Assembly: GCF_004342285.1 (NCBI RefSeq)
Contig: NZ_SMCV01000005.1
Span: forward strand, 186,001 to 250,000
From: Klebsiella sp. BIGb0138
GTDB taxonomy: Bacteria > Pseudomonadota > Gammaproteobacteria > Enterobacterales > Enterobacteriaceae
DNA: 64,000 bases
Direction: 5' to 3'
Shown here: positions 5,150-22,251 of the stretch, one piece after another
How the letters are laid out: each line of letters starts with the position of its first letter
Position numbering within the stretch: the first letter of the stretch is position 1
Notes under the pieces: model-generated
The model's database searches: none
The model's input: the letters and a program-made list of their open reading frames with translations, nothing else
What the model was told of the DNA's origin: nothing
Position numbers and translations under genes: made by a program

Positions 5150-5174
5150 AACTATTTGCTTCTTAAGTAGAATT

Positions 5175-5219
5175 TGGTGGCCCCTGCTGGACTTGAACCA
5201 GCGACCAAGCGATTATGAG
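5175..5219 (-). repeat. attL: 45-bp displaced 3' half of ileX
   Basis: Identical over 45 bases to the 3' half of the intact tRNA at 22176-22220, from the encoded CCA through T-arm and variable loop to the anticodon loop. After base 5219 the two diverge at once (left AATGG, right TCGCC). It is the leftover of the original gene end. Confidence 0.93.
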
Positions 5220-5393: not shown

Positions 5394-6830
5394 ATGGCTG
5401 AAAAAACATTCAGATTTACCAAATCCAGGCTTGAAAGTTTATCCCCGGCACCAAAAGGTGGTCGCGTAGAATATCGAGATTCTGAGGTGCAGGGGCTTAT
5501 CCTACGTGTAACTGCTGGTGGTGTGAAAACGTTCAGCGTATCGCGTAAAAAACACGGAGAACACTTCCGGGTGACGCTTGGGCGCTTCCCCGATCTGAGC
5601 GTCGAAAATGCCCGACAGATGGCGGTAAGATCCCTGGGTGAAATGAGCATGACCCGGAAGAACCCTAACGACCTCCGCAAGCAGGAAGAAAAACGGTTGA
5701 TAACGCTGCTGGATGCGTTTGAGGAACGTTTAAAGGTTCGGGGGCATCGGATTAGCCAAACAACCGCAGAACAATACAGAGGGCTGCTTACCAACTATTC
5801 CGGAGACTGGCTGAACCAGCCAATGGTTAATATTACTCGTGAGCGTATCGAGAATCGTCACAAAGCTGTTACCGATGGCTCTGTGTGGTTTGGTGTAGAT
5901 CGTTCAAAGCTCCGGGCGGGTGTGGGAACGGGAAGTAAATCACAGGCGGATGCATGGGGACGTGCGATCAGGACTGTATTCCGTTTTGCCTGGGACCATT
6001 ATCGTGATGATGAGGGGCGCAGTCTGCTGCCCGAACCACCAACGATGGTATTGAGTACCAAAAGCCACTGGCACGGGCTGACGCGAAAAACTGAGCGTGT
6101 AAGAAACTCCGACCTTGGGCGATGGTTTGCCGCTATCGAGCAGGTGCGCCTGCAGTCCGCCGAAAATCGGGATGATTTTGCAGAAGCTGTTTGTGACGCC
6201 ATCTACATGATGATGTTTACTGGGCTGCGTAAGTCGGAGGTACTTCAACTGGAGTGGAGTCGGGTAAATATGGCGAGTCTGTATTACTGGATAGACAAGA
6301 CAAAGAATGGGGATCCCTTGGAACTTCCAATGATCTCCTCTCTGCTGAAAATGTTCCGGCGTCGGCTGTCGCTTCGCAAAGCAGATGATCGGTTGGTGTT
6401 CCCCGGAAAAGATGGTGGCACAATCAGCGAGGCGAGAAAGGTCATTTCTCGGATTGTTGCGGCCACAGTGCCTGAGCATAACCCCGATGCTCTACAGCCA
6501 GTGAACTTTAAATACCATGATGCCCGGCGTACGTTTGGCTCTGCTGCGGCGCTATGCGGTCTCGATGGGTATCTGATAAAGCGTCTGATGAACCATAAAA
6601 CCATGCGTAGCGCAGATGTTACGCAGGGCTATCTGCATTTTGGCGCTGATGAACTGCAGGAACATGCCGAGAAGGTGGAGCGTTACATACTGGAAAAAGC
6701 CGGGCTGGTGGAAAGCAAAGGTAATCTTGATATGCAGCTGCTGGCCGTCATGGGGTCGATGACCGATGAGCAAAAACGGAGAATTATTTTTGACGTGCTA
6801 AATCACGATAACATGCAGGTTGAAAAATGA
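5394..6830 (+). CDS. int: Tyrosine recombinase/integrase of the satellite
   Basis: A 478-residue P4-type site-specific recombinase that would integrate and excise the element at ileX. The N-terminal about 90 residues resemble the DUF4102-like arm-binding domain (GLILRVTAGGVKTFSVSRK). A core-binding SAM-like domain follows, and the catalytic domain starts near 230. Catalytic residues visible are R279 (TGLRKSEVLQLEW), H375 and R378 (HDAR), H401 (NHKT) and the nucleophile Y413 (QGYLHF), so it looks intact. The ATG at 5394 has no strong Shine-Dalgarno, but the family N-terminus fits. It reads away from attL and its stop overlaps the next gene (ATGA). Confidence 0.93.
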   Translation: MAEKTFRFTKSRLESLSPAPKGGRVEYRDSEVQGLILRVTAGGVKTFSVSRKKHGEHFRVTLGRFPDLSVENARQMAVRSLGEMSMTRKNPNDLRKQEEKRLITLLDAFEERLKVRGHRISQTTAEQYRGLLTNYSGDWLNQPMVNITRERIENRHKAVTDGSVWFGVDRSKLRAGVGTGSKSQADAWGRAIRTVFRFAWDHYRDDEGRSLLPEPPTMVLSTKSHWHGLTRKTERVRNSDLGRWFAAIEQVRLQSAENRDDFAEAVCDAIYMMMFTGLRKSEVLQLEWSRVNMASLYYWIDKTKNGDPLELPMISSLLKMFRRRLSLRKADDRLVFPGKDGGTISEARKVISRIVAATVPEHNPDALQPVNFKYHDARRTFGSAAALCGLDGYLIKRLMNHKTMRSADVTQGYLHFGADELQEHAEKVERYILEKAGLVESKGNLDMQLLAVMGSMTDEQKRRIIFDVLNHDNMQVEK

Positions 6831-9524: not shown

Positions 9525-9824
9525 ATGAGAAAGAAAAATACCGGACTTAATGCCGGGGGCTTCACTCATCCTGAGATCCTCCCGGGCGATATTTACAAGG
9601 ATAAACGGGGTGAACGTGTAACGGTTTTATCTGCGACGCCAAACCGAATTTGTTTTATTCGTGACGGATACTCAGGGGAATGTGCATTTCCTGCGGTTCG
9701 TTTTCTGAGGGAGTTTACGCCAGTGAAGCGCCAGACGATCGCCGAATGGTGCGATACCAACAACACAGCAGAAAAGATAAAGAAAATTCGCGCGTTGATT
9801 GCTGCTAAGAGAGTCGGGAAATGA
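9525..9824 (+). CDS. DUF4222 domain protein
   Basis: A 99-residue protein. The segment GDIYKDKRGERVTVLSATPN, then RICFIRDGYSGECAFPAVRFLREF, matches the DUF4222 pattern found in lambdoid and P4-like prophages near excisionase or replication genes. It is a small SH3-like beta domain without known catalytic residues. The last four bases overlap the start of the helicase gene. Its role is unknown; genome context links it to early phage or satellite regulation. Confidence 0.75.
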   Translation: MRKKNTGLNAGGFTHPEILPGDIYKDKRGERVTVLSATPNRICFIRDGYSGECAFPAVRFLREFTPVKRQTIAEWCDTNNTAEKIKKIRALIAAKRVGK

Positions 9825-11635
9825 AGAACGCACCGAACGTAAAGGCGCTGCCGAAGGACAAATTTACTGAGGCGATTATCTTCGCTGGTGCTGACGCATG
9901 GAGTCATGCCAAAGGCTGGGAGGAAGGTATGGGCAAACAGGTAGCCGGCGATACCACGCCGCCGGTTTATCTGGGGCCGAAGCAGCTGGAGGAACTGGAC
10001 AACCTTCGCATTATCGATGACGGACGCAGAGCTGCGCGGGTATACCTGGCTGGTGAGATTGAGCCGCTGATGATTAACGCGATTGGTACTCGGTTGGCGC
10101 TCGCAGGTGTGCAGGATGCCAAATTGTATAAAGGCATTCCAGATCGCCATCCGGAAGACTGGCACGATTATCTGAACCGGTTGCGTGAACAAGCGGAACG
10201 GGGGGAAAGAACTGTGGTCGATCTGCCAGTAACTAAGCGAGAACACTTGCAAAATAGCGTAGTGCCAGCACTGAACCAGATGGGGGCCAGCCAGCGCGGT
10301 GAGGTGCTGTTGGCTCACTATGATGGGAACCTGGCGATTCATGCCGACTCTGATACGGTTCACCACTACAACGGTGTTGTCTGGAATCCACTACCGGATA
10401 AAGAACTACAGCGTGAAATGGCACAGATCTACATCGATTCTGAGGTGGCCTACTCGCAGAACGCCATTAAATCTGCGGTGGAAACTATGAAACTGAGTCT
10501 ACCGGTCATGGGGGTTACAGCCCGCAACCTTATTGGCTTCAGCAATGGTGTATTTGATACCCGGACGGGGCAATTCAGGGAGCATAACAAAACCGACTGG
10601 CTGCTGATTGCCAGCGAACTGCCGTTCAGCCCGCCGGCAGATGGCGAGACGCTGGCGACTCATGCGCCGAACTTCTGGAAATGGCTTCGCCGTTCCGTGG
10701 CCAGCAATGACCGTAAGACGGATCGTGTACTGGCTGCGCTGTTTATGGTGCTGGCGAACCGTTACGACTGGCAGTTGTTCCTTGAAGTTACGGGGCCGGG
10801 TGGCAGCGGTAAAAGCGTCATGGCGGAAATCTGCACGATGCTGGCGGGCAAAGCCAATACCGTATCAGCCAGTATGAAAGCGCTGGAAGATGCAAGGGAC
10901 CGGGCGCTGGTGGTTGGCTACTCGCTGATCATCATGCCGGACATGACCCGCTATGCTGGCGATGGTGCCGGGATAAAAGCCATTACCGGCGGCGATAAGG
11001 TGTCGATAGACCCGAAACACAAGGCGCCATACTCGACGCGGATACAGGCGGTAGTGCTGGCTGTAAACAATAATGCCATGACGTTCAGCGACCGCAGTGG
11101 CGGGATATCTCGTCGCCGGGTGATATTCAACTTTTCCGAGGTCGTGCCGGAGGATGAGCGGGATACGATGCTGTCCGAAAAAATCGAAGGGGAGTTGGCC
11201 GTCATTATTCGTCACCTGCTCACACGTTTTGCCAGCCAGGACGAAGCCAAACGACTACTTCACGAACAGCAGAAATCAGAGGAGGCACTGACTATTAAGC
11301 GCGAAGGTGACTCGCTGGTGGACTTCTGCGGCTATCTGCTGTCGTCGGTGGCGTGTGACGGGATGTTTATCGGTAACGCTGAGATAGTACCATTCAGCCC
11401 ACGCCGTTATCTGTATCACGCCTACATGGCATACATGCGGGCCAATGGACTGAGTAAGCCGGTGTCGTTAATGCGGTTCGGCACGGATATGCCCGGTGCT
11501 ATGTCCGAGTATGGGAAGAAGTACGATAAACGGAAAACAAAGCACGGTATCAGGTCAAACGTCACCCTGCATGATGATTCAGAAGATTGGATGCCATCAT
11601 GTAACAGTACTTCTGAGAACGGCAAGGTAGAGTAA
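9821..11635 (+). CDS. SF3 helicase / P4-alpha-like replication protein without visible primase domain
   Basis: A 604-residue phage/plasmid primase-helicase (D5/P4 alpha C-terminal type). The helicase domain has Walker A GPGGSGKS at 325-332, Walker B-like SLIIMPDM near 370, the sensor asparagines in LAVNNNAM and the arginine finger region SGGISRRRVIFNF. The D5_N-like region precedes it (about 190-300). P4 alpha is near 777 residues with an N-terminal zinc/Toprim primase. Here the first about 190 residues show no zinc cysteines or primase EGxxD motif, so priming may come from the host. The C-terminal about 120 residues would bind the iterons that start 12 bases after the stop. It overlaps the DUF4222 gene. 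Confidence 0.88.
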   Translation: MKNAPNVKALPKDKFTEAIIFAGADAWSHAKGWEEGMGKQVAGDTTPPVYLGPKQLEELDNLRIIDDGRRAARVYLAGEIEPLMINAIGTRLALAGVQDAKLYKGIPDRHPEDWHDYLNRLREQAERGERTVVDLPVTKREHLQNSVVPALNQMGASQRGEVLLAHYDGNLAIHADSDTVHHYNGVVWNPLPDKELQREMAQIYIDSEVAYSQNAIKSAVETMKLSLPVMGVTARNLIGFSNGVFDTRTGQFREHNKTDWLLIASELPFSPPADGETLATHAPNFWKWLRRSVASNDRKTDRVLAALFMVLANRYDWQLFLEVTGPGGSGKSVMAEICTMLAGKANTVSASMKALEDARDRALVVGYSLIIMPDMTRYAGDGAGIKAITGGDKVSIDPKHKAPYSTRIQAVVLAVNNNAMTFSDRSGGISRRRVIFNFSEVVPEDERDTMLSEKIEGELAVIIRHLLTRFASQDEAKRLLHEQQKSEEALTIKREGDSLVDFCGYLLSSVACDGMFIGNAEIVPFSPRRYLYHAYMAYMRANGLSKPVSLMRFGTDMPGAMSEYGKKYDKRKTKHGIRSNVTLHDDSEDWMPSCNSTSENGKVE

Positions 11636-11925
11636 AGTTATAAATTAAGTGTTCACCAGTATTCACCCTGTTAAAAAGTTTATTTATAACAGCAAGTTAA
11701 ATGGTGAACACTTATTTGTTAAGTATTCACCAAGTATTCACCTGTTCACCTTTTGATTGTTTTTCATCCTAAAGGGTGAAGGATAGGGTGAACACTAGTG
11801 AATACCTTAAAGAAGAGTATTCACCATATAACTACATGAATATAATCATGAAATTTGAAAAGGTGAAGGGGTGAACACTTAAACGCATATTTTTTAATTT
11901 TATAGCTGAGTGGGTCCAGTAAACG
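11636..11925. other. ori: Iteron-type replication origin candidate
   Basis: Nine copies of (AAG)TRTTCACC / GGTGAACACTT lie at 11647-11657, 11658-11667, 11703-11713 (minus), 11721-11731, 11732-11742, 11743-11750 (short), 11787-11796 (minus), 11816-11825 and 11870-11880 (minus), in AT-rich DNA with no gene. P4 alpha binds GGTGAACA-type iterons in the P4 origin and crr, so this is very probably the origin used by the helicase gene just upstream. Confidence 0.8.
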
Positions 11926-12129
11926 TCAGTGCAACCTTTGCTACATCGCTGGCTGGCAGAGTCCCAGCGGCTAAGTGAACAGGCTCGTTTTAATCTGAAC
12001 ATTTCTGGAGTGGGCGGGAGGGTATGATATAGAGATCTGTTTCTTGAATCGCCTGAGTGGCTACCAGAGCAGAAAATTCCGGTTCCAAACGTGACATTTC
12101 GTCGCTTACCTTCTGTACCAGTCTTTTGA
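11923..12129 (+). pseudogene. Possible decayed gene fragment with in-frame stop
   Basis: One frame reads HRWLAESQRLSEQARFNLN, an in-frame TGA at 12025, and then RDLFLESPEWLPEQKIPVP and FRRLPSVP before TGA at 12127. The composition is protein-like on both sides of the stop, and there is no usable start codon. I do not recognise the parent protein, and chance coding potential cannot be excluded. It may be a remnant of an older satellite gene downstream of the origin. Confidence 0.3.
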
Positions 12130-12217
12130 TTTGTTATATTGTGCTTTCGTATAGAAGTTCAGGTTTGACTTTGCCAATATAAAATCGCGGTAGACGCGTA
12201 GTGGGTAGGTTTAGCGG
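12130..12217. promoter_or_regulatory. AT-rich leader of the DUF4365 cassette
   Basis: Non-coding, AT-rich DNA (TTGATTTGTTATATTGTGC and TATAAAATCG) ahead of ATG 12218 should hold its promoter. No exact -35/-10 pair can be fixed by eye. No strong Shine-Dalgarno is seen. Confidence 0.35.
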
Positions 12218-12718
12218 ATGGACAAAAAGAAGCAGATGGAGCAATTCAATATTGCCTATATACGTTCTCTTGCTGCACATGCAGGCTTTAAAGTGTCTAC
12301 TGGTGAAGTAGATGATGATAGTGTTGATATAACAATTGAAGGGACTGGGTTTAATAACTCAGTTATTCGGAACCCCAAGGTAGATATTCAGTTAAAATCC
12401 ACTAAGAACTTTAAATTAAAAGATAATGTTATTACATATGCTTTAAAAGCAAAAAATTATTCAGACCTAATTGGTGATAATGTTTTATCTCCTAGATATT
12501 TAGTATTGCTCCATTTGCCGGTTAATGACTCTGATTGGCTATACCACAGTGTTAATGGTATTACATTAAGAAATAGATGTTATTGGTTTTCGTTAAGGAA
12601 TTTGCCTCCAAGTGCCAACAGGAATAGTGTAACTCTTAACATACCTGCCAATCAGGTGTTGACTTCATCTTTGCTAAAGGACATGATGAAGGCGGCTAGC
12701 AACGGGATGAGTGTATAA
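12218..12718 (+). CDS. DUF4365 domain protein, probable PD-(D/E)XK-type nuclease
   Basis: A 166-residue protein that fits DUF4365. It has a helical N-terminus, then the acidic strand GEVDDDSVDITIEG (residues 29-42) and VDIQLKST (55-62) with the D56-x-Q58-x-K60 triad in place of D/E-x-K. DUF4365 is assigned to the restriction-endonuclease-like fold and is common in defence islands. Codons are AT-rich, unlike the chromosome and the satellite core, which indicates imported cargo. The gene overlaps the next by eight bases, and the two look like one transcriptional unit. It likely cuts or binds nucleic acid with its partner as part of an anti-phage cassette; that role is inferred from context. Confidence 0.75.
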   Translation: MDKKKQMEQFNIAYIRSLAAHAGFKVSTGEVDDDSVDITIEGTGFNNSVIRNPKVDIQLKSTKNFKLKDNVITYALKAKNYSDLIGDNVLSPRYLVLLHLPVNDSDWLYHSVNGITLRNRCYWFSLRNLPPSANRNSVTLNIPANQVLTSSLLKDMMKAASNGMSV

Positions 12719-13841
12719 TATGAAATTATACAATGAGAAATTTATAACGACAGAGGACTTTTCGAACTATCTTATTTTGAAAGGATGGATCTTATTTTCT
12801 AAATTACCCAATGTTGCTAATGTCTGGCGTTATGAGAAAAATGATAATTATGAAATATTACAGCCAGTCCGTGCCGATTTAAAAGATTATTCCAACAGAG
12901 TTGTCGATATCATTAATGTTCTCAGTGAGAGTGAGAATAAATCAAAGGATGAGGTTGTTAGAGAACTTGATAATATTAGTAATGATATTATTAGTCTCAG
13001 AGTAATTCATGATGATGTAGCTAACGGAGAGATACCTTTTGCTGATGGACTTATTCTGTTTTCTAAAACAAAAGACTTGATGCTTTCAGCTGCAAGGTCT
13101 GTTGTTAAGCCTCAGCGCGGCCGCTATTCTGGCAAAAATCCAGAGGTTGTAGATCGTTTCTTCAATAGCCTGAAACTAGGTCAAACCCAGGTCGGTAGTT
13201 ATGTGCTTAATCTGGTTTCACCAATATATTGGGAAGATGATGTACAGGAAGATTATTGTAAGGTTCCTTTTTCAAGAACAGTTACGGAACGGTTAATGTA
13301 TAGCATTGAGAAACTAAGTAATGCTGTTGATAAATATAAGGAGTGTGGAGATTTAAAAGTTTTTGAATCTATTATTAACGACGGTGTTAATGCAACGCTA
13401 TGCTCTGCAATAATTGGTTTGAGTGGATTGAATAAGTCAAGGATTGTTGAGATTACGGTCTTAAAGTCAGTCATCGCTGATGCTTCAAATAGTGATATAA
13501 CTAAAGTGTCTATAACGCCAGAGAAGATAAAATATATCGAAGAAGCAGAAGGTTATTACTCAAGTAACTATACAGTGAAAGGTTATAATCTTGTCGGTTC
13601 GGTAATTAGGTTAAATAGAGATATAAATTCATCGGGTGGGACGGTGACCATTGTTGAATCTTCTGAGAATAACCGTAAAGTTACGGTTGAACTCGATGAG
13701 GAACACTATAATGAAGCCATTAAAGCACATGAGAATAAATATGAAAATGCACGTTTGGTTGGTATGCTGATAGTAACTCCGAAGACGACAAAACTTGTTG
13801 ATGTGAGTGAGTTTCACATATTACATCATCCCATAAAGTAA
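12711..13841 (+). CDS. Unknown partner of the DUF4365 protein
   Basis: A 376-residue protein I do not recognise. The start could be TTG/ATA-region 12711 or ATG 12720 (MKLYNEKFITTEDF); the latter is better by codon and removes the overlap. The N-terminal half is helical (ADLKDYSNRVVDIINVLSES and following). The C-terminal about 100 residues are a beta-rich domain (VKGYNLVGSVIRLNRDINSS, GGTVTIVE, ARLVGMLIVTPKT) of a type seen at the end of several uncharacterised large defence-linked proteins. No Walker, HNH or protease motif is visible. Coupling to a DUF4365 nuclease in satellite cargo suggests a two-gene defence or toxin-antitoxin-like unit. Confidence 0.7.
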   Translation: MYNMKLYNEKFITTEDFSNYLILKGWILFSKLPNVANVWRYEKNDNYEILQPVRADLKDYSNRVVDIINVLSESENKSKDEVVRELDNISNDIISLRVIHDDVANGEIPFADGLILFSKTKDLMLSAARSVVKPQRGRYSGKNPEVVDRFFNSLKLGQTQVGSYVLNLVSPIYWEDDVQEDYCKVPFSRTVTERLMYSIEKLSNAVDKYKECGDLKVFESIINDGVNATLCSAIIGLSGLNKSRIVEITVLKSVIADASNSDITKVSITPEKIKYIEEAEGYYSSNYTVKGYNLVGSVIRLNRDINSSGGTVTIVESSENNRKVTVELDEEHYNEAIKAHENKYENARLVGMLIVTPKTTKLVDVSEFHILHHPIK

Positions 13842-14307
13842 GGGTGAGGGTGTTTTTTTGATTTTAGCTCGATTAAATTCGGGCTTATGTATTGATCGGC
13901 AACAATATATTTAATGAGACTGAAGAGAATAAGGACGGTTGAGCTAGTATAAAAGGTTAAATGAACGCAGGTTTTAGTGCTCGCTAGTTGCAATGCTCAA
14001 CGTTGGATACTGTAACCACTCAGCAGTCTAGGGATTATATGTAAAACCAGAACGACTCTTGAAATGCCCATATCTTATTTATAGGAAAATGAGATGTGTT
14101 CTGCTTGTAGGGGGTAGAATTAGGTTTCCGTCAGAGAGGAAGAGCGCAAAGACCACACATCGCTTCTCCTCCAGTGTCCTCTTGATAATCAGAGAAAGTA
14201 GTAACTACTGCTACGTAAGGCTGCATTCCTTTTTAGGTTACTACGCAATTAAAGTTCAGAAAGGAATTTCCACTGGCACATGAAGTTGCGCCGGTGGAGT
14301 CAATGCC
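13842..14307. other. 466-bp gap between two cargo genes
   Basis: No convincing gene is found. A short plus-strand reading frame at 14059-14283 has no ribosome-binding site and an unnatural composition. A hairpin stands at its end (14269-14298). The rest is AT-rich DNA between convergent transcripts and may contain remnants. Confidence 0.5.
14269..14298. terminator. Hairpin between convergent cargo genes
   Basis: TCCACTGGC and GCCGGTGGA pair (one G-U) around a 12-base loop, immediately downstream of the DUF2971 gene on the minus strand. The U-tract is poor on either strand, so it is only a likely terminator. Confidence 0.45.
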
Positions 14308-15444
14308 TTAATCAAGAATAACTCTTCGTGAACTCATTCCTTTGTCTGTTGGGGTAATATGAAGGGCTTCGCCATTTTTCCAAAAGTTGTATTTTGTATT
14401 GAATGATGGATTTGAGAAATTTATCACGTCCCCGCAATCAAATATCTCTGTTGGCTCAATAGAAATGGTATGTTGGTCATCATTAAAACTGGCGTCAAAT
14501 GACACGATATTGAATAAATATTTTTCGCTTTTAGTATCCATATAGCGTTCTTTGCTTTTTCTCAGAAGTATTTCTTTAATGATGTTTTTGTTTTGTTCAG
14601 ACATGCGCATGCCATAAATCACGCCAGCAATCTGTGAGTTGTCGTAATGAAATATTTTGTCAATTGGTGAAAGTATCTCCTTAGATAAGCTGGGTGAGGG
14701 CGCATGTATGTATAGCCTTGATTCTTCTTCGTAGTCCCAGCAAGCAGATTTTGTTAAATATACATTCTCTCTGCTTTCCCAATAAGAGGTAATTTCTTCG
14801 TTGGATAACTCTCTACCGTAGACATAACTCGGAAATAGAGTGAATCCATCAAGGTTTTTCTTGCTTCCATAAGTAACGTTATGCATTTTAAATTTCTCCT
14901 CAATGCTGAGAGAGCAGTGATCACCTAAATTTATAATGCTTTTTTTACGGGATTTGCACTGGTTAATATTTCCTTCTATACTTCTGAATATAAGGCAGAA
15001 ACCCTCATGCTTTCCTGTGTAATGGGACCACATTAATGTGTTTTTATATGTTCTGGAAAATGATACAGAACATCCTTCGGATGGAATATATCCTGAAATG
15101 TAATATTTTAGTGTTTCAGAAAGAAAATATGCCGTTTCTCTCTTTGATTCTCCAATAAAGGATAAAATCAGTTCAAACAAAAATGTTTGGTTTTCTACTA
15201 ATTTTCTAACCGAAAGTGGCGATTTTTTGGCGAAACTTTCAGCTAAAAATCTCGTATCTACTGGCAGGCCTTTAAAGGCTAAATCTAAAAGCCTGTTCCA
15301 CTTTGGAAAGTCTTCTGGGAATTCATAAGAAATTAATCCATCAAGAGGGTCGTTTAACTCCGATGGATATGAAAAATACAACTCATCGTAAATTAGCTCT
15401 TTGATGGATAAGGCGCTCATGGGGCGATATCTGTAATACAGCAT
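14308..15444 (-). CDS. DUF2971 domain protein
   Basis: A 378-residue protein starting YYRYRPM and continuing ELYFSYPSELNDPLDGLISY, the hallmark N-terminal motif of DUF2971 (conserved Tyr/Arg, then F-x-x-P-x-x-x-N-D-P-x-D). A second typical stretch is MWSHYTGKHEGFCLIF near residue 135, followed by conserved basic and aromatic residues (VYLTKSACWDYEEESRLYIH). DUF2971 proteins are scattered singly in defence islands and prophages, and no biochemical activity is established as far as I know. The gene is AT-rich, alone on the minus strand and in the variable cargo slot of the satellite, so a defence or accessory role is plausible. Confidence 0.8.
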   Translation of the reverse strand: MLYYRYRPMSALSIKELIYDELYFSYPSELNDPLDGLISYEFPEDFPKWNRLLDLAFKGLPVDTRFLAESFAKKSPLSVRKLVENQTFLFELILSFIGESKRETAYFLSETLKYYISGYIPSEGCSVSFSRTYKNTLMWSHYTGKHEGFCLIFRSIEGNINQCKSRKKSIINLGDHCSLSIEEKFKMHNVTYGSKKNLDGFTLFPSYVYGRELSNEEITSYWESRENVYLTKSACWDYEEESRLYIHAPSPSLSKEILSPIDKIFHYDNSQIAGVIYGMRMSEQNKNIIKEILLRKSKERYMDTKSEKYLFNIVSFDASFNDDQHTISIEPTEIFDCGDVINFSNPSFNTKYNFWKNGEALHITPTDKGMSSRRVILD

Positions 15445-15761
15445 TTAATTATCCTCATTTTATATGGCGGCTTATTGTGTATGAAACGTAACTTTTTGCC
15501 CTTAAACGAAAACAAAAGTCTCTTATGAGTATTGAGTCGTTCCCTGCAGTCACAATCGACCAGCCAATCATCTTTGTGTGAGCCAAGGACAAAGGGCTTC
15601 AATGTAGGCCGCCTACCATTTAGTGAAGATACCTTCTTCTTCCCTCGTAGTTGCATTTTTTATGATTTAAATATTTTATCTTGACGATTTAATTTATTGA
15701 TCATAAGTTAAGCGTATGAAGAAGAGTTCTGTATGTTTAACCAGTATCAGGAGGTCAGGAA
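15445..15761. other. Intergenic region between DUF2971 cargo and the structural-like module
   Basis: It contains the promoter regions of the minus-strand DUF2971 gene and of the plus-strand module. A 79-codon minus-strand frame (15417-15656) overlaps the DUF2971 start, lacks a Shine-Dalgarno and is not accepted as a gene. Near 15749 an AGGAGG serves the next small gene. Confidence 0.5.
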
Positions 15762-15938
15762 ATGGCAGTCACGAACAAAAAGCCGATTCTTGTTGATCAG
15801 CCGATTCTCGAAGGGTTACAGCGCCTCCGGGATGATGAATGCCGGCGTTCTACCGTTGGCGCAGCCCCAAGCATTCAGGAGCTGGCGCGTCACCTTTTGC
15901 GCCAGGGCATCCACCGGCATGAGGCGGGCAAGAAGTAA
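15762..15938 (+). CDS. Small basic protein heading the structural-like module
   Basis: A 58-residue protein from ATG 15762 to TAA at 15936-15938, too short for most gene callers but with a strong AGGAGG about eight bases upstream. It reads MAVTNKKPILVDQPILEGLQ, then a charged helix and SIQELARHLLRQGIHRHEAG. The second half resembles the helix pair of ribbon-helix-helix or CopG-like proteins, so it may be a small regulator or scaffold. The next gene follows 26 bases downstream on the same strand. Confidence 0.65.
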   Translation: MAVTNKKPILVDQPILEGLQRLRDDECRRSTVGAAPSIQELARHLLRQGIHRHEAGKK

Positions 15939-15964
15939 CGCTACCGTCCGAAAAGGAGAAACCA

Positions 15965-16741
15965 ATGCCGTTAATGAAATTACCCACATGGGCGCTAACA
16001 GCGTTCGGTACGAAAGGTAAGAAAAAACAGCCCCAACTATCTGAGGAAAACCCATCCATGTTCGATTTCTCGCATCTGTCAGGAAAAACCAAAACGAAAG
16101 GCGAGTCCGATAACGGGAATGCGCCACTGAAGCTGGACAGTGACGACACCCAGATCACCCGACCTAAGCAGCACAGTCGCGGCCACAATGTCGCGGTATC
16201 GACTGAAGCTAAGGATAACCCGGTTCTGGCGGTTCGTTTGCTGAAGGAGACCGAGCTTTCTTCGAAGAAAATTAAGCTGAAACTGGCATCGTCACCGGCG
16301 GCCCTTTCTGTCTTTACCATGAAATTTATGGAAGAGAACGATCCAACCTGGGAATTTCAGGACGATGAAGAGAAAGCCCACACGGCGCTGATGTTTTCGA
16401 CGCAGAATCGCGACGCAAATGGTTATATCGCTGCCAAAACCAGCGCTCTCAAGGCATTGAAGAAAATGGAAGAGCCTCTGACAGGGGATGAGGTCAAGGC
16501 ATTAGCCAGCATGGCATCGAAGATGCAAAATGATTACGACCCGATGTCGCCTGAAAATGTGAGAGCTCGCCGCAAGGCTGACGAAGAGTATCAGGAAGAA
16601 GTCGCCCAGGCGGCCGCACGCCGTAATGACCGTATCCGGGCATCTGGTGTGAGCTTGCCGGGAGATACTCGTCGCGTTAATGGCAAGATTGAAGGGCCGG
16701 TACGTGAAGCCGAACTCCTTAAATCACAGGTTCCTCTCTGA
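15965..16741 (+). CDS. Paralogous satellite protein A of the ejection-like module
   Basis: A 258-residue highly charged protein from ATG 15965 with AAGGAG upstream. Residues about 70-175 align with the next gene product (163 aa). Shared pattern elements are VSxEAKxNP, LSxFTxxxME, PxWEFxDxE, DxNGYxA and ALxxLxKxxEPxT. The two are therefore tandem paralogues, this one with a longer charged N-terminus and a C-terminal coiled-coil-like tail (ARRKADEEYQEEVAQAAARR). No enzymatic motif. Adjacency to a tape-measure/muramidase-like protein suggests small virion or ejection proteins, but no direct similarity to a known one was recognised. Confidence 0.7.
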   Translation: MPLMKLPTWALTAFGTKGKKKQPQLSEENPSMFDFSHLSGKTKTKGESDNGNAPLKLDSDDTQITRPKQHSRGHNVAVSTEAKDNPVLAVRLLKETELSSKKIKLKLASSPAALSVFTMKFMEENDPTWEFQDDEEKAHTALMFSTQNRDANGYIAAKTSALKALKKMEEPLTGDEVKALASMASKMQNDYDPMSPENVRARRKADEEYQEEVAQAAARRNDRIRASGVSLPGDTRRVNGKIEGPVREAELLKSQVPL

Positions 16742-16752
16742 GAGGTGCGGTG

Positions 16753-17244
16753 ATGAGCGTTATGAATTTTCAGCACCTCAATCCGCCGCAGCCCGATGCG
16801 CAGGCATATGGCTTTTCCGGGCGCCGTATGCAGCGCATGCATCGACTTCAGCAGTCTGTTGAAGACGAGCAACCCCCTGAACGTCGCCATTCTGATGCAC
16901 ATCTGATCGCGGTGAGCAAAGAGGCCAAACAAAACCCGATACAGGCACTTCATCTTATCGCTGAAGGGATACCACACCAGCGGGCCATCGCCTTACTGCA
17001 GGGCAGCGTTCGGCAGCTCAGTCGTTTTACCCGTCGGGCCATGGAGAAAGCCTATCCTGGCTGGGAGTTCCTTGATGCCGAAGACCAGAACATGGCGGCA
17101 TTCCAGCACAGCATGATTAACGGCGACACCAACGGCTATCGGGCTGGCTTTAACGCTGCTCTGTCGGCGCTGGAGAAGTTTGTAGAGCCAGTTACGTTTG
17201 ACGATATCGTGAATAGCGTTAATTCGCTGGTGGAGGAAGTATGA
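16753..17244 (+). CDS. Paralogous satellite protein B of the ejection-like module
   Basis: A 163-residue protein. ATG 16753 follows AGAGGTG by five bases; an in-frame GTG directly before it and an ATG at 16762 are alternatives. Its core (LIAVSKEAKQNPIQALHLIA, then RQLSRFTRRAMEKAYPGWEF and INGDTNGYRAGFNAALSALE) matches the central part of the preceding protein, indicating gene duplication followed by divergence. The last codons overlap the start of the large downstream gene (ATGA), so expression is coupled. The function is unknown; it is proposed to act with protein A and the 609-residue protein. Confidence 0.7.
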   Translation: MSVMNFQHLNPPQPDAQAYGFSGRRMQRMHRLQQSVEDEQPPERRHSDAHLIAVSKEAKQNPIQALHLIAEGIPHQRAIALLQGSVRQLSRFTRRAMEKAYPGWEFLDAEDQNMAAFQHSMINGDTNGYRAGFNAALSALEKFVEPVTFDDIVNSVNSLVEEV

Positions 17245-19070
17245 GTAATTCATTCGATTTTGAGCTGGTTGCTGATGACAGGGTCAGCGGGACCATTGAC
17301 GACATTAATGAGGCTATTCGAAATCTTGGACCGCATCTGGAGAAGACGCGGGAAAGCCTCAGGCTGGGCGGGGATGAGACTGCAGAAGATTTAGATGGTG
17401 TCGTTGACAGACTAGGAAAAATGTCACGAGGTGCGCGTGATAATGTTCAGTTTATCGGTGACATCATTCCTCCGTTGAAAATTGTAGGTGAACTGGCTGG
17501 TAAGGTGGCTGGGTTCGGAGCTGCTGGCGTCGTAGGGTTCGGTGTCCAAAAGATTGCTGACGGTTTTCGGGATGCGGCAAAAGGGGCATATGACCTCGAA
17601 ACGCACGCCAAAAATACCGCCATGAGCGTTCAGGAATTTTCGCGGCTGGCCGGTGCCATGCGTATTTTAGGGGCGGACAGCGAAAGCGCAACTGCTTCAA
17701 TAGATAGTTTCTTTAAGGGGCTCAATGAAGCAGCCAGCGCGAAAAATCCGGGGTTTATGAATGCTATGTCGCAAATTGGTGCGCAGATCGAGAAGAATAA
17801 AGATGGTTCGGTGAACACCTTAAAAACACTGGAGTCGATTGCGAAAATTTTCCCAACCCTACGGCCTGATCAACAAAAATCCGCTGCCGATGGGTTGGGT
17901 ATGACGCCTGAATTGCTGACACTGATGCGTGAAGGTGTGGAATACAAAAAATATCTGGCGAAGGCAGATAAATTTGGTCTGACAGTGGATCCTGAATTTA
18001 ATGCGGAAATGTCAGAAGCCAATCGCCAGATGAATGAACTTTATGCTCGTGTTGCTGGTTTTAAAACGGTTGCAGGGAATGAAACAATTAAGTTATTTCG
18101 ACACGATCCCGCTATTGATAAATCTCTCAATGACGCCCAAAAATATGACGGGAAGGTCTTTTATCATGGCGATCGTGATAAAGATATTCGTTGGAAAGCA
18201 TTAAGGGATGATGAGTTTAAAGCCAGTCTGTCAGCTTCTGAAAGGCTCAACTTTACACTTAACAGACCCGACCCCGAGGTGGAGAAAAAGCTTAATGCCC
18301 GATACGGCGCAATGTGGCAGGCATATCGGTTGCAGGATGATTTATCTGCCATTTCCAAAATATCCGGCAATGACAAAGTCCCTTATAACGATGGCCATAA
18401 TGCCTCTAACACTCTGGGATTTCGGAATCACAATCCTGGCAACTTGAGAGATGCCTCAAACACAACAGGGAAGAACGGCGGTTTCTCGACGTTCGCCAGT
18501 GATCATGATGGCCTTGCAGCAATGGCGCGCCAACTGATGTTATACGGTGACCGCGGAAATAATACCCCAAGGGGCTTTCTTCATACGTATGCCCCGAGTT
18601 CTGAAAACAATACCCGGGCTTATATCGATGATGTGACTTCCAGAACTGGTTTTGGTGCAGGCCAGCGTCTTGACCTCCATAACCCTGAAGTCCTTAAGAC
18701 GTTGATGGCCGCAATGATCAGGCATGAGCAGGGCTCTCAACCCTATACGGAGGAACAACTCAAAAACGCGATAAGAATGGCCATAACGGATGACCGGTGG
18801 TCTGGAAAGCGCAGCCCGGAGCTACTCTCTCAGCAGCGGAACAATATCAACGCGATGCCGACTGGTGGCTATCGCCCGGAATCAATACTGGCGCCAAAGA
18901 AAAGCAATAGTGACTCGAATGCCGTCACCGATAACCTGGCCCGCTCCCTCAAGGATGCTTTCACAGAACAACCGTTAAGACTGGAGATCGTTATGACTAA
19001 CGATAAAGGCGAGCGAAAAACTTACAACGTTGAGAACAACGGGAAAATAATTACGCCCATGAACTATTGA
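17241..19070 (+). CDS. Tape-measure-like protein with C-terminal muramidase/P5-like domain
   Basis: A 609-residue protein with GGAGG upstream. Residues about 80-110 are glycine-rich and hydrophobic (GKVAGFGAAGVVGFG). Residues 128-260 (MSVQEFSRLAGAMRILG and following; DGLGMTPELLTLMREGVEYK) match a helical segment recurrent in phage tail-length tape-measure proteins. From 393 the motif GFRNHNPGNLR, followed by GGFSTFASDHDGLAAMARQL and HTYAPSSENNTRAYI, is the conserved core of a virion-associated muramidase/P5-like domain. In phages such proteins are ejected to open peptidoglycan during DNA entry. A satellite without its own capsid carrying one is unusual; it could modify helper particles. Domain calls come from motif memory. 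Confidence 0.7.
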   Translation: MSNSFDFELVADDRVSGTIDDINEAIRNLGPHLEKTRESLRLGGDETAEDLDGVVDRLGKMSRGARDNVQFIGDIIPPLKIVGELAGKVAGFGAAGVVGFGVQKIADGFRDAAKGAYDLETHAKNTAMSVQEFSRLAGAMRILGADSESATASIDSFFKGLNEAASAKNPGFMNAMSQIGAQIEKNKDGSVNTLKTLESIAKIFPTLRPDQQKSAADGLGMTPELLTLMREGVEYKKYLAKADKFGLTVDPEFNAEMSEANRQMNELYARVAGFKTVAGNETIKLFRHDPAIDKSLNDAQKYDGKVFYHGDRDKDIRWKALRDDEFKASLSASERLNFTLNRPDPEVEKKLNARYGAMWQAYRLQDDLSAISKISGNDKVPYNDGHNASNTLGFRNHNPGNLRDASNTTGKNGGFSTFASDHDGLAAMARQLMLYGDRGNNTPRGFLHTYAPSSENNTRAYIDDVTSRTGFGAGQRLDLHNPEVLKTLMAAMIRHEQGSQPYTEEQLKNAIRMAITDDRWSGKRSPELLSQQRNNINAMPTGGYRPESILAPKKSNSDSNAVTDNLARSLKDAFTEQPLRLEIVMTNDKGERKTYNVENNGKIITPMNY

Positions 19071-19087
19071 TGCGGCCTTCCGCCGTC

Positions 19088-19127
19088 GCCTTACAAAAAT
19101 GGGTCCTTCCTGAGACTTTTGTAAGGC
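19088..19127 (+). terminator. 11-bp perfect inverted repeat after the tape-measure-like gene
   Basis: GCCTTACAAAA is exactly complementary to TTTTGTAAGGC 18 bases later. The hairpin stands 17 bases after the stop codon, as a terminator would, though the run of T is inside the stem. It may alternatively belong to a packaging site. Confidence 0.5.
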
Positions 19128-19177
19128 ACGGGCATTGCGCGCCGCGGTGTTTTTGTAGCTATGGGTTTTCAATTTGA

Positions 19178-19382
19178 TTGACACTTTACACTTGACACTT
19201 TTTTGTTGTCAGGTTGTTAAGTCCCAGAAACGGCGCGTGATGCAGGGGAATTGGTGAGGATTTTGGTTGACAGTTTGATTGACACTTTCAGCCCGAAAAG
19301 TGTCAAGTTGACAGAAAAAAGTGTCAAGCGGTAGATCCCTTGACGTTTGATTGACAGTTTTCCGCCGGCGGGTTGACACACT
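19178..19382. repeat. Array of TTGACA(C/G)TTT repeats in both orientations
   Basis: Copies are at 19178-19187, 19192-19201, 19267-19276, 19279-19288, 19297-19306 (minus), 19318-19327 (minus) and 19351-19360. Shorter variants are at 19308-19314, 19340-19348 and 19373-19382. Three carry the longer form TTTGATTGACA. The array ends about 35 bases before a gene for a Nu1-like DNA-binding protein, so it may be its binding site: a packaging (pac/cos) or regulatory region. Confidence 0.7.
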
Positions 19383-19416
19383 GGCCAGCCGGCGACAATG
19401 AGGCAGGAGAAAAATT

Positions 19417-20004
19417 ATGTCACTAATGAGCGTCAGCCAGTACGCAAAACATGCCGGAATGAGCCGGCAGGCGCTGTATAACTGGGAGAGCCATGAAGGA
19501 TTTCCGGCGCGGGTTGACGGGAAGATTGACCAGGAGGTCTGCGATGCCTATCTGGCCCGATACCGCAGCGCCAGTGACCCGCGCACGAAGAATGCCAGGG
19601 GAAAAACCAAATCTGCTCCAGCCGGTCAGGCGCAGGGGAGTGCGCTGGTGGAAATGAGTGTTGCGGAGATTAAGCGCATCATGGCGTCAGGTGCCGGTAA
19701 GGTGTCCGGGATGGACCCGGACGAACGTGCCCAACTGGCTGCAAAGGCTGTGGAGCTGTTTTTAAGCGAAGGGCCTTATAACCCTCCTGTGACGTTCGGC
19801 GGCTACCGGCTGTCGATTGTTGAAACGCCAGATGTTGAAATCGGGCAGATCATCGCGGGCGGCGCGTTCGGTCTGTCTGCATATGATGTGATTTACGAGT
19901 GCCGGGATTACACCCTGACCCTCATGAGCGATGAAACCGAAGAAACAGCCATGCGGAGAGTGATCCCTTCGTTGCTGTATGCCCTGGCCGACGATACCGA
20001 CTAA
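19417..20004 (+). CDS. Nu1-like/terminase small subunit-like DNA-binding protein
   Basis: A 195-residue protein with AGGAG upstream of ATG 19417. Residues 4-45 (SVSQYAKHAGMSRQALYNWE, then GFPARVDGKIDQEVCDAYL) form a winged-helix of the Nu1/terminase small subunit or excisionase type. The middle is a linker rich in Lys/Ala/Gly, and the C-terminal domain (FGGYRLSIVETPDVEIGQII, EETAMRRVIPSLLYALADD) is unknown to me. In PICIs a small-terminase homologue or Rpp protein redirects helper packaging to satellite DNA. The TTGACA array directly upstream fits a recognition site. It could also be a simple regulator. Confidence 0.65.
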   Translation: MSLMSVSQYAKHAGMSRQALYNWESHEGFPARVDGKIDQEVCDAYLARYRSASDPRTKNARGKTKSAPAGQAQGSALVEMSVAEIKRIMASGAGKVSGMDPDERAQLAAKAVELFLSEGPYNPPVTFGGYRLSIVETPDVEIGQIIAGGAFGLSAYDVIYECRDYTLTLMSDETEETAMRRVIPSLLYALADDTD

Positions 20005-20033
20005 AGCAAAGTGTGCCAGCGGGCTCCTGTTAT

Positions 20034-20055
20034 TCCAGCCCTTCGGGGCTGGCTT
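20034..20055 (+). terminator. Terminator after the Nu1-like gene
   Basis: CCAGCCC-ttc-GGGGCTGG (stem AGCC/GGCT with tetraloop-like TTCG) is followed by CTTTTTATATC. This is a canonical intrinsic terminator 30 bases after the stop at 20004. Confidence 0.8.
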
Positions 20056-20111
20056 TTTATATCGTTGCCCAGGGCATAGCCGGTGAGCCTGTAGAGCAAG
20101 AGGATAAGACT

Positions 20112-20300
20112 ATGTTAAAACAGAAGAAAATCGAGGTGGTAATTGAAGAGCTGGCCCGCCTACAGGGGCATGAGCTGAATGCCGCCGATATGCTGGAGTT
20201 ACGTTGCAGGGTTGCGTGTACGCTCGCAGCGAAGGAGCGGCACCGCAGGCGAATGACTGCTCCCGAATATCACTGGTGTAAGCCAGCACCTCGCCGATAA
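20112..20300 (+). CDS. Small basic protein, function unknown
   Basis: A 62-residue protein starting at ATG 20112 behind AGAGGAT. The sequence MLKQKKIEVVIEELARLQGH, then LELRCRVACTLAAKERHRRR, gives one acidic/basic helix and a strongly basic tail that could contact nucleic acid. It follows the Nu1-like gene by about 107 bases on the same strand. The gap contains a hairpin-like CCAGCCCTTCGGGGCTGG near 20034-20051, so it may be transcribed separately. Small proteins at this position are common in satellites, but none is identified here. Confidence 0.55.
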   Translation: MLKQKKIEVVIEELARLQGHELNAADMLELRCRVACTLAAKERHRRRMTAPEYHWCKPAPRR

Positions 20301-20597
20301 CCTCTTGTTCATTGAACCGCTAAAACTTTATTAACGTGTCATATACTGAAAAATCTACCAGCGCCATAAGGTTGAATTCACTAAAAGCATGACGGCCAAA
20401 GTGACGGTCTCGGATAAATCAAAGAGTTACAGCGAGTACAGACTGAATTTCTCCTGCTTAGTACCTGAGTGGCCACGGCGCTGTCAGTGAAGAAACAGAA
20501 AAGCCCCGAATTAACTCTGAGACATTCCAGTGACTAAAACCGAAACCACCCAGGTAAGTTTCTATCTTATAAAATGTTGTCTAAAAGTGATAAACAA
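20301..20597. other. Non-coding gap before the DUF3892 gene
   Basis: About 300 bases without an acceptable gene. A 33-codon plus-strand frame from ATG 20389 has no ribosome-binding site. I see only scattered AT-rich DNA and no convincing repeat. Confidence 0.45.
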
Positions 20598-20885
20598 TTA
20601 GCAGTTTGGCAGGGAGAGTAAATTGTCACTCCACTTGCCATCGGCGTAAGTCCTAATGTATTTAGCCCCGCCATTCCCCGGGTCTACAACACCTACATAC
20701 GCAACATTACCCGCCGAATCTTGGACATAGAAAGTATGTTCTTTATTTTCAATCGCACGAACAACCTGAGCGACAGTCCATTTTGAACCAGCTGGTTGAA
20801 ACTGGTCGCTACCTACATGAGTAATATGTTGGTGAGATTTCACTGTTCCTGACAAGGTAATGCACTTAATTCTTACATTTGCCAT
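20598..20885 (-). CDS. DUF3892 domain protein
   Basis: A 95-residue protein beginning MANVRIKCITLSGTVKSHQH with GAGGAT upstream of the ATG at 20885; a start five codons earlier is less likely. The order I-x-x-I, HITHVGSDQF, a helix WTVAQVVRAIENKEHTFYV, then VGVVDPGNGGAKYIRTYADG and a C-terminal Leu/Pro motif is that of DUF3892, a small single-domain family found alone on islands and plasmids. Its function is unknown. It is isolated on the minus strand next to the attR-side cargo and has its own AT-rich promoter region. Confidence 0.75.
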   Translation of the reverse strand: MANVRIKCITLSGTVKSHQHITHVGSDQFQPAGSKWTVAQVVRAIENKEHTFYVQDSAGNVAYVGVVDPGNGGAKYIRTYADGKWSDNLLSLPNC

Positions 20886-21286
20886 GTAAACGATCCTCAT
20901 TTTTTATAGAACTGAGTTGGAAGGCTGTGCGCGCGATTACGCAAAAACAAGTGTAAGATATCATTTCAAAAAGTGCGTGTATGTTTTTTGATTTTATCCT
21001 TTATTTACATTTTTTTGGGGATTGCTCTCAGAACCTGTTGTCATGGTTAGTGAATTGAATCTGATAATGAAAATTTCGGTCGGGTGTTATCACCGCTACC
21101 GGTATTGTGCATACCGTGACACGCTCCATCAGCCTGCCAGCATCCAAGATTTCTAACGCTCTCCACCACGATCCGTGATTCGCGTCTCACTACCTATCAA
21201 AATCAGTAAATCGGAGGCTGCTATCATTGATAAATAAGTTTTTAACCATATTTATTAGAAGGTATTTAACTCAAAGGATCATTTGA
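20886..21286. promoter_or_regulatory. Divergent promoter region of the attR-side cargo genes
   Basis: About 400 bases between the DUF3892 gene (minus) and the 228-residue gene (plus). The part near 20960-21020 is very AT-rich and must contain promoters. A stretch at 21070-21180 reads protein-like in one frame (VITATGIVHTVTRS) but lacks a start and may be a gene relic. CAAAGGATC precedes the next ATG. Confidence 0.4.
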
Positions 21287-22165: not shown

Positions 22166-22175
22166 TTGCTGTATC

Positions 22176-22251
22176 TGGTGGCCCCTGCTGGACTTGAACC
22201 AGCGACCAAGCGATTATGAGTCGCCTGCTCTAACCACTGAGCTAAGGGGCC
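22176..22251 (-). tRNA. ileX: tRNA-Ile (CAU anticodon), ileX; island attachment site
   Basis: A 76-nt tRNA including the encoded CCA: 5' GGCCCCUUAGC, D-arm AGCUCAGUGGUUAGAGC, anticodon loop CUCAUAA, T-loop GGUUCAAGUCC, acceptor pairing GGCCCC/GGGGCC. The CAU anticodon in this body is the minor isoleucine tRNA of enterobacteria, in which C34 is changed to lysidine by TilS so that it reads AUA, not Met. The gene is complete because the element carries the same 45-base 3' half. It is immediately upstream of mug on the opposite strand, as in E. coli. Confidence 0.93.

Follow-up and report, generated by a model that had tools for sequence, protein, structure and literature searches.

The window analysed here, a stretch of DNA of 64,000 nucleotides, carries a 17.0-kb satellite element delimited by 48-nt repeats that lie 17,001 bases apart, and in the cargo slot of this satellite are two adjacent genes, M02A and M02B. 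The features are listed below with their coordinates in the window.

5172..5219, no strand: att repeat at the integrase-side end, a 48-nt direct repeat that shares 98% identity with the copy at 22173-22220
5394..6830, plus strand: tyrosine integrase (Pfam Phage_integrase 1.5e-14, Arm-DNA-bind_3 1.8e-10)
9821..11635, plus strand: P4-alpha-type primase/helicase (PHROG 864 DNA primase, 1.3e-162)
11640..11880, no strand: GGTGAA/TTCACC array between primase and cargo, from motif counts
11906..15659, no strand: variable cargo slot with M02A, M02B, and a DUF2971 gene
12026..12217, plus strand: leader of M02A-M02B, conserved with both genes in other elements (blastn)
12218..12718, plus strand: M02A, 166 aa, Pfam DUF4365; conserved E8, D37, Q58, K60, and W107
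12720..13841, plus strand: M02B, 373 aa; PADLOC PDC-M02B 8.2e-132, PHROG 27927 7.5e-41
14308..15444, minus strand: DUF2971 protein (Pfam 8.5e-7; PADLOC PDC-S31 8.4e-26)
22173..22220, no strand: att repeat at the far end, overlapping tRNA-Met 22176-22251 (minus strand)

The two repeat copies, 5172-5219 and 22173-22220, the latter overlapping tRNA-Met, confirm the satellite setting proposed in a preliminary description of this DNA. The primase of the satellite is 48% identical to the alpha protein of phage P4 and 78% identical to the primase of vB_KppS-Ant (L044). Counting both strands, GGTGAA/TTCACC occurs 11 times in the region 11635-12217, compared to 61 times in the whole 64-kb window, and 9 to 11 copies were found 3' of the primase in each of five related elements. 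We take these motifs to be satellite replication origin repeats, a role such repeats have in phage P4, and by this analogy the array is likely the replication origin of the satellite. Pfam searches with 17 ORFs of the element returned no match to capsid, portal, or large terminase families, which leaves other capsid families possible, and when 11 proteins of vB_KppS-Ant were compared to the element of the window, the primase alone matched.

The edges of the cargo slot were defined by comparison to related elements. On the left, homology stops at window position 11903 with L044, whose slot is empty, and at 11905 with L032 and L033, while on the right homology to the sister satellite L071 begins at 15660. 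L032 and L033 are viral contigs in which a primase, origin-type repeats, M02A, and M02B are followed by capsid, portal, and terminase genes; they are capsid-forming PICI-like satellites and, like the related element L044, have the P4-type primase and the origin repeats in common with the element of the window. Nine proteins match between L032/L033 and L044: identity is 83-97% for the capsid, p004, portal, connector, and terminase proteins and 43-88% for gp9 and P58. The slot of L044 holds no cargo and measures 85 nt versus 2,043 nt in L032, with flanks that are 92 and 93% identical; judged from these alignments, L044 is the empty and L032 the occupied version of the cargo site. By blastn, window 12026-12439 corresponds to L033 6530-6943 and window 12109-13840 to L032 4515-6247, the latter match stopping one base short of the end of the M02B stop codon. 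Since the homology to L032/L033 begins in the leader and ends at M02B, the leader, M02A, and M02B behave as one block.

The sister satellite L071, in genome G153 from another species of the same genus, sits at the same tRNA-Met and is 81-88% identical to the window over most of 15660-21076 (88% over 15660-16992). In place of M02, it encodes a 453-aa Fic protein (SoFic, PADLOC 1.5e-47; L071:10833-12194), flanked by a gene that begins like the window primase (77.5% over 414 nt). SoFic occupies the same slot as M02 but is an unrelated protein, so its presence shows only that the slot accepts varied cargo. A variable satellite cargo slot, as had been anticipated, was therefore seen in an empty (L044), an M02 (L032), and a SoFic (L071) version. 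For Escherichia coli, 2,138 records match the primase, and four elements were examined as looser comparisons: 3' of the primase, L045 carries dptFGH and AbiE genes (annotation) and L048 an OLD-like nuclease (PADLOC), and the annotation of L046 and L047 contains no named defence gene at that position. In the slot of the window, the DUF2971 gene stands tail to tail with the M02 pair, which places two candidate systems in one slot.

Both ORFs of the pair were found where the preliminary description had placed them, and both are AT-rich, with a GC content of 0.353 (M02A) and 0.352 (M02B) versus 0.551 in the whole window. The frame of the second gene is open from GTG 12711, as described, which reads as 376 aa; however, this length is probably too great, because the homologues favour 373 aa. 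Among the 12 closest homologues after a near-identical match, 11 have 373 aa and one has 379 aa, and in seven of the eight of these that were aligned, the start corresponds to the residue encoded by ATG 12720, which lies one base past the M02A stop. We therefore took M02B as 12720-13841; judging from the aligned sequences, ATG 12720 is probably the start and GTG 12711 probably 9 nt too early. Compared to the copies in L032, M02A is 90% and M02B 81% identical, with dN/dS of 0.059/1.21 for M02A and 0.111/1.36 for M02B, ratios that are only rough since dS exceeds 1 and is near saturation. M02A and M02B look like selected protein genes, and chance ORFs are disfavoured because of this apparent purifying selection relative to the L032 copy. 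The leader at 12026-12217 likely holds a promoter, and a promoter scan of this region gave five sites, compared to 9.7 on average in shuffled sequence, with no consensus site standing out.

In PADLOC-DB 2.0.0, M02A matches PDC-M02A (PDLC04297, 3.8e-61, residues 1-163 of 166) and M02B matches PDC-M02B (PDLC04330, 8.2e-132, over residues 3-372 when read as 376 aa). With both models matched, the genes one base apart, and gene order and adjacency the same as in relatives, the pair of the window is PDC-M02, a catalogued phage defence candidate. The view that the pair was undescribed has to be given up, since the database already lists exactly this pair; the comparison to defence databases that had been suggested did yield a match, but to a candidate entry and not to a characterised system. 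The source of the PDC list is reportedly a 2024 preprint by Payne et al. PDC-M02, M02A, and S31 are not mentioned in the literature searched, a scope outside which that preprint lies. As given in excerpts of two papers, PDCs are phage defence candidates that come from 'guilt-by-embedding' and are putative and mostly unvalidated (PMC10855318, PMC12988326). Among the excerpts of the literature searched, no test or mechanism of PDC-M02 was found, the PDC-M passages concerning M05 and M30, and the excerpts on DUF4365 nowhere describe the M02A-M02B pair; according to one of them, SGI1-related elements of Shewanella and Vibrio can have a gene for a DUF4365 protein as a replacement (PMC9035990).

The linkage of the two genes was examined from both sides. 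Starting from M02B in the genome and viral collections, M02A was found immediately upstream in 37 of 39 loci, and in the two exceptions (L027 and L028) M02B is cut at the contig end; these 39 loci are partly non-independent, since L014, L015, and L019 share one genome. Starting from M02A, a long and open M02B was adjacent in all ten loci, five of which are on contigs already counted. The genomic co-occurrence that the preliminary description had put forward is thus borne out, and the linkage is close to obligate. When 9 of 12 phage and plasmid records were examined, a recognisable M02A stood beside M02B in eight, in one of which it is cut by the record start, and the ninth is L042, described below (each of the remaining three equals an examined record in length and identity). 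Further genomes, excluding that of the window, yielded 11 M02B genes, nine of which are adjoined by M02A (one shortened at the locus start); the other two are L097, with an M02A fragment, and L100/L102, a single broken M02B without M02A. Pairwise distances of M02A and M02B over 36 pairs are correlated with r of 0.93, a value reached by 0 of 9999 permutations and one that shared descent by itself would also raise. A 4-nt overlap of the two ORFs was seen in 20 of 35 loci. The family ranges over proteobacteria, spirochaetes, clostridia, and actinobacteria, and the pair was also found on plasmids, bacterial contigs, and prophages of other kinds. M02 is rare: the genomes that have it number 1 of 392 in the family, 3 of 369 in the class, and 10 of 398 in the phylum (the window's own genome included in each), and the cassette DNA gave no match in 5,426 E. 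coli genomes.

Several loci carry an altered copy of one of the genes. In L042, an ORF that resembles an IS6-type transposase stands where M02A would adjoin M02B. In L033, M02A is split at L033:6949-7712 by an insertion with transposase ORFs, which we take to be IS1-like, and M02B is open. In L022, from a rumen member of the Aeromonadales, the M02A frame is broken around 8.6 copies of the 5-base repeat ACTGA (L022:7781-7823), a pattern that resembles a phase-variation switch of the nuclease. In L019, from the Pasteurellaceae, M02B lies in two frames (L019:1356-2613) beside a whole M02A, L014 and L015 being further copies in the same genome. In L043, a prophage record of Mycobacterium abscessus, the pair (398-2160) occupies the first two gene positions, near WXG and polymorphic-toxin genes.

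We collected 156 neighbouring genes from 28 loci (up to three per side, within 5.5 kb, at least 330 bases, more than 1400 aa excluded). The first 140 of them, which come from 24 loci, were scanned, these unrelated proteins being put in one alignment purely for joint scanning. No conserved third gene was found among these 140 neighbours, the commonest PADLOC model matching four of them (among the best 25 of 235 models), and N6_Mtase was found in two (among the best 25 of 126 Pfam families). Among ten large neighbours scanned singly, one in L010 is a type IIG restriction enzyme, two genes of L007 had weaker matches, and the other seven had no match.

M02A matches Pfam DUF4365 over residues 8-159 (E 1.1e-21; 77.8 bits with a cut-off of 24.3). 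A sequence search for solved relatives of M02A returned only three rows, all at chance level. In its predicted structure, M02A has a PD-(D/E)XK fold of the DUF4365/DREN type, the nearest fold being the nuclease (DREN) domain of SPARDA, with similarity also to branched-DNA resolvases, and D37, Q58, and K60 form the D...QxK arrangement of a catalytic site. D37 and K60 are conserved in 45 of 45 sequences and Q58 in 44 of 45, so that catalysis by M02A is likely under selection. The nuclease-like character first read from this DUF4365 protein is in line with the predicted fold and the conserved triad, and M02A is likely a DREN-type PD-(D/E)XK nuclease. The earlier choice of D56 and K60 as catalytic residues was half right: K60 is retained, but D56 was rejected because just 20 of the 45 sequences have an aspartate at position 56, and the conserved aspartate is D37 instead.

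The AlphaFold2 model of M02B has a mean pLDDT of 86.9 and predicts an OB fold at the C-terminus (about residues 283-370), with matches to OB-fold structures over 283-373. The N-terminal part is mixed alpha/beta in the model and contains the invariant residues Q155, T156, G159, and S160 (a QTxxGS motif). The preliminary outline of a helical N-half followed by a beta-rich C-domain therefore holds, except that the N-half is not purely helical but has strands too. A sequence search for solved relatives of M02B returned none at E up to 10, and Foldseek against the PDB gave no match under 1e-3. Compared to a viral library, M02B had six matches past 1e-3, the best being an unnamed Leptospira phage LE1 protein over the full length (2.4e-21). 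The N-terminal part had no convincing match to a solved structure in these comparisons, of which VIA-align probed chiefly the OB part. Pfam searches with 49 relatives of M02B gave no common family, only 20 weak families with at most two members each, one of which is an OB-fold model, and tblastn with three M02B proteins returned two mycobacterial prophage records only. Charge on the OB fold was also considered as a sign of nucleic-acid binding and was rejected, the computed charge not being supportive.

The closest likeness to a known system is to SPARDA, whose DREN nuclease domain has the predicted fold of M02A and the D-Q-K triad (D41/Q60/K62 in NbaSPARDA, D37/Q58/K60 in M02A). In an excerpt of the SPARDA literature, the DREN domain by itself has no activity (PMC12205087). 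In SPARDA, the nuclease protein also carries APAZ and is paired with a short Argonaute, whereas M02A is, at 166 aa, a nuclease domain only, without APAZ, and is paired with the OB-fold protein M02B. For M02B, no Argonaute family was found by Pfam, and the best 25 of 37 PADLOC families were all M02B. Since there is neither an Argonaute nor APAZ, the pair does not belong to SPARDA, and we infer that the analogy applies to the mode of working and not to membership. The archaeal Holliday junction resolvase Hjc had a lower top score (14.2) than SPARDA, although some SPARDA rows tie with Hjc; in contrast to Hjc, M02A is tied to one partner gene and belongs to a dispensable cargo.

Pairing, conservation, location in the cargo slot, and the PADLOC match were established in this analysis, and overall M02A-M02B is a genuine candidate defence pair, mobile and already catalogued, for which a defence function is predicted. 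By analogy to SPARDA, and with a confidence evenly divided between right and wrong, we propose that the pair is a defence unit in which M02B senses infection and switches on the SPARDA-type nuclease M02A. What this adds to the catalogue entry is an inferred but concrete and testable mechanism for PDC-M02. In an uninfected cell, M02A would be idle, and M02B would fill the role that the short Argonaute and APAZ hold in SPARDA. Through its OB fold or its N-domain, M02B would bind a signal of infection, for which phage nucleic acid or a phage protein bound to nucleic acid is the likeliest candidate, and would then gather several M02A subunits or unlock M02A. Clustered M02A would cut DNA broadly, with hardly any preference for sequence, so that the phage genome is destroyed, and would probably also stall or kill the cell. 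We offer more tentatively the specific form of an Argonaute-free SPARDA, in which DREN would work without guide RNA, wired to an OB-fold sensor that recognises phage DNA or a phage DNA-binding protein and assembles the nuclease into an active form.

Other explanations of the pair were weighed against this reading. A toxin-antitoxin-like arrangement, in which M02A would be constitutively toxic and restrained by M02B, so that the satellite is retained and defence is at most a by-product, appears rather unlikely. It fits the tight linkage and co-variation of the genes, the long open M02B in all ten loci found from M02A, and the M02B frames that stay open in L033, L022, L042, and L097, where M02A is interrupted, incomplete, or absent; however, L019 is the reverse, with a split M02B and a whole M02A (though that genome also has the L014 and L015 copies), and a 373-aa protein with an OB fold is big for an antitoxin. 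PADLOC moreover lists M02B among defence candidates, and the slot of the sister element L071 holds a PADLOC defence gene. The inactivity of the SPARDA DREN domain alone (PMC12205087, excerpt) also argues against a nuclease that is toxic unless restrained.

Ordinary methylase-protected restriction was set aside because a methylase is lacking, none of the 17 element ORFs scanned being a methyltransferase and N6_Mtase being present in two of the 140 neighbours of relatives (among the best 25 of 126 Pfam families). Restriction that depends on modification would need no sister methylase, since M02B would read modified phage DNA and M02A would cut it, and we consider this unlikely. It is quite improbable that the pair is a weapon against helpers or rival satellites that acts only on the replication of competitors during satellite induction: in three elements the pair lies next to the primase and the probable origin, and M02A is similar to branched-DNA resolvases, but the pair is also found on plasmids, bacterial contigs, and other kinds of prophage, and vB_KppS-Ant has the same flanks without it. 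A housekeeping repair or recombination unit of the element, consisting of an Hjc-like resolvase and an SSB-like partner, is very improbable and is the worst fit to the slot evidence among the rivals, since the pair is absent from L044, with the same flanks, and from L071, which has the same 3' backbone and SoFic instead.

If the sensor-effector reading is true, a SPARDA nuclease effector can operate in the absence of Argonaute, coupled to a switch of a new type, and DREN would be a general plug-in effector that has been paired in evolution with at least two unrelated sensors. The pair would then be a simple, two-protein, guide-free collateral nuclease, and the N-terminal part of M02B with its invariant QTxxGS would be a target in the search for a new infection signal. 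Related slots exist in an empty, an M02, and a SoFic version, which amounts to a natural experiment on the exchange of satellite cargo.

Elsewhere in the element, the gene at 17241-19070 encodes a protein whose N-part resembles a tail tape-measure protein (PHROG 2276, 1.5e-117) and whose later part resembles an endolysin (PHROG 873, 3.3e-41); no capsid genes were recognised in the element, and a similar gene is present in L071. Towards the tRNA, the protein encoded at 21287-21973 matches PHROG 28570 (1.1e-115); the surrounding stretch, which has no counterpart in L071, is perhaps a second cargo place. In a search for RNA families, tRNA alone reached the gathering threshold, and a match in L033 far under the threshold was treated as chance. 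The tRNA-Met was found in all 12 same-genus loci retrieved, and the tRNA-Met site in 20 of 20 same-genus genomes (the window's own included). A second att-like copy lies near tRNA-Met in at least four same-genus genomes (G153, G242, G309, and G405), as if the site were a hotspot for elements.
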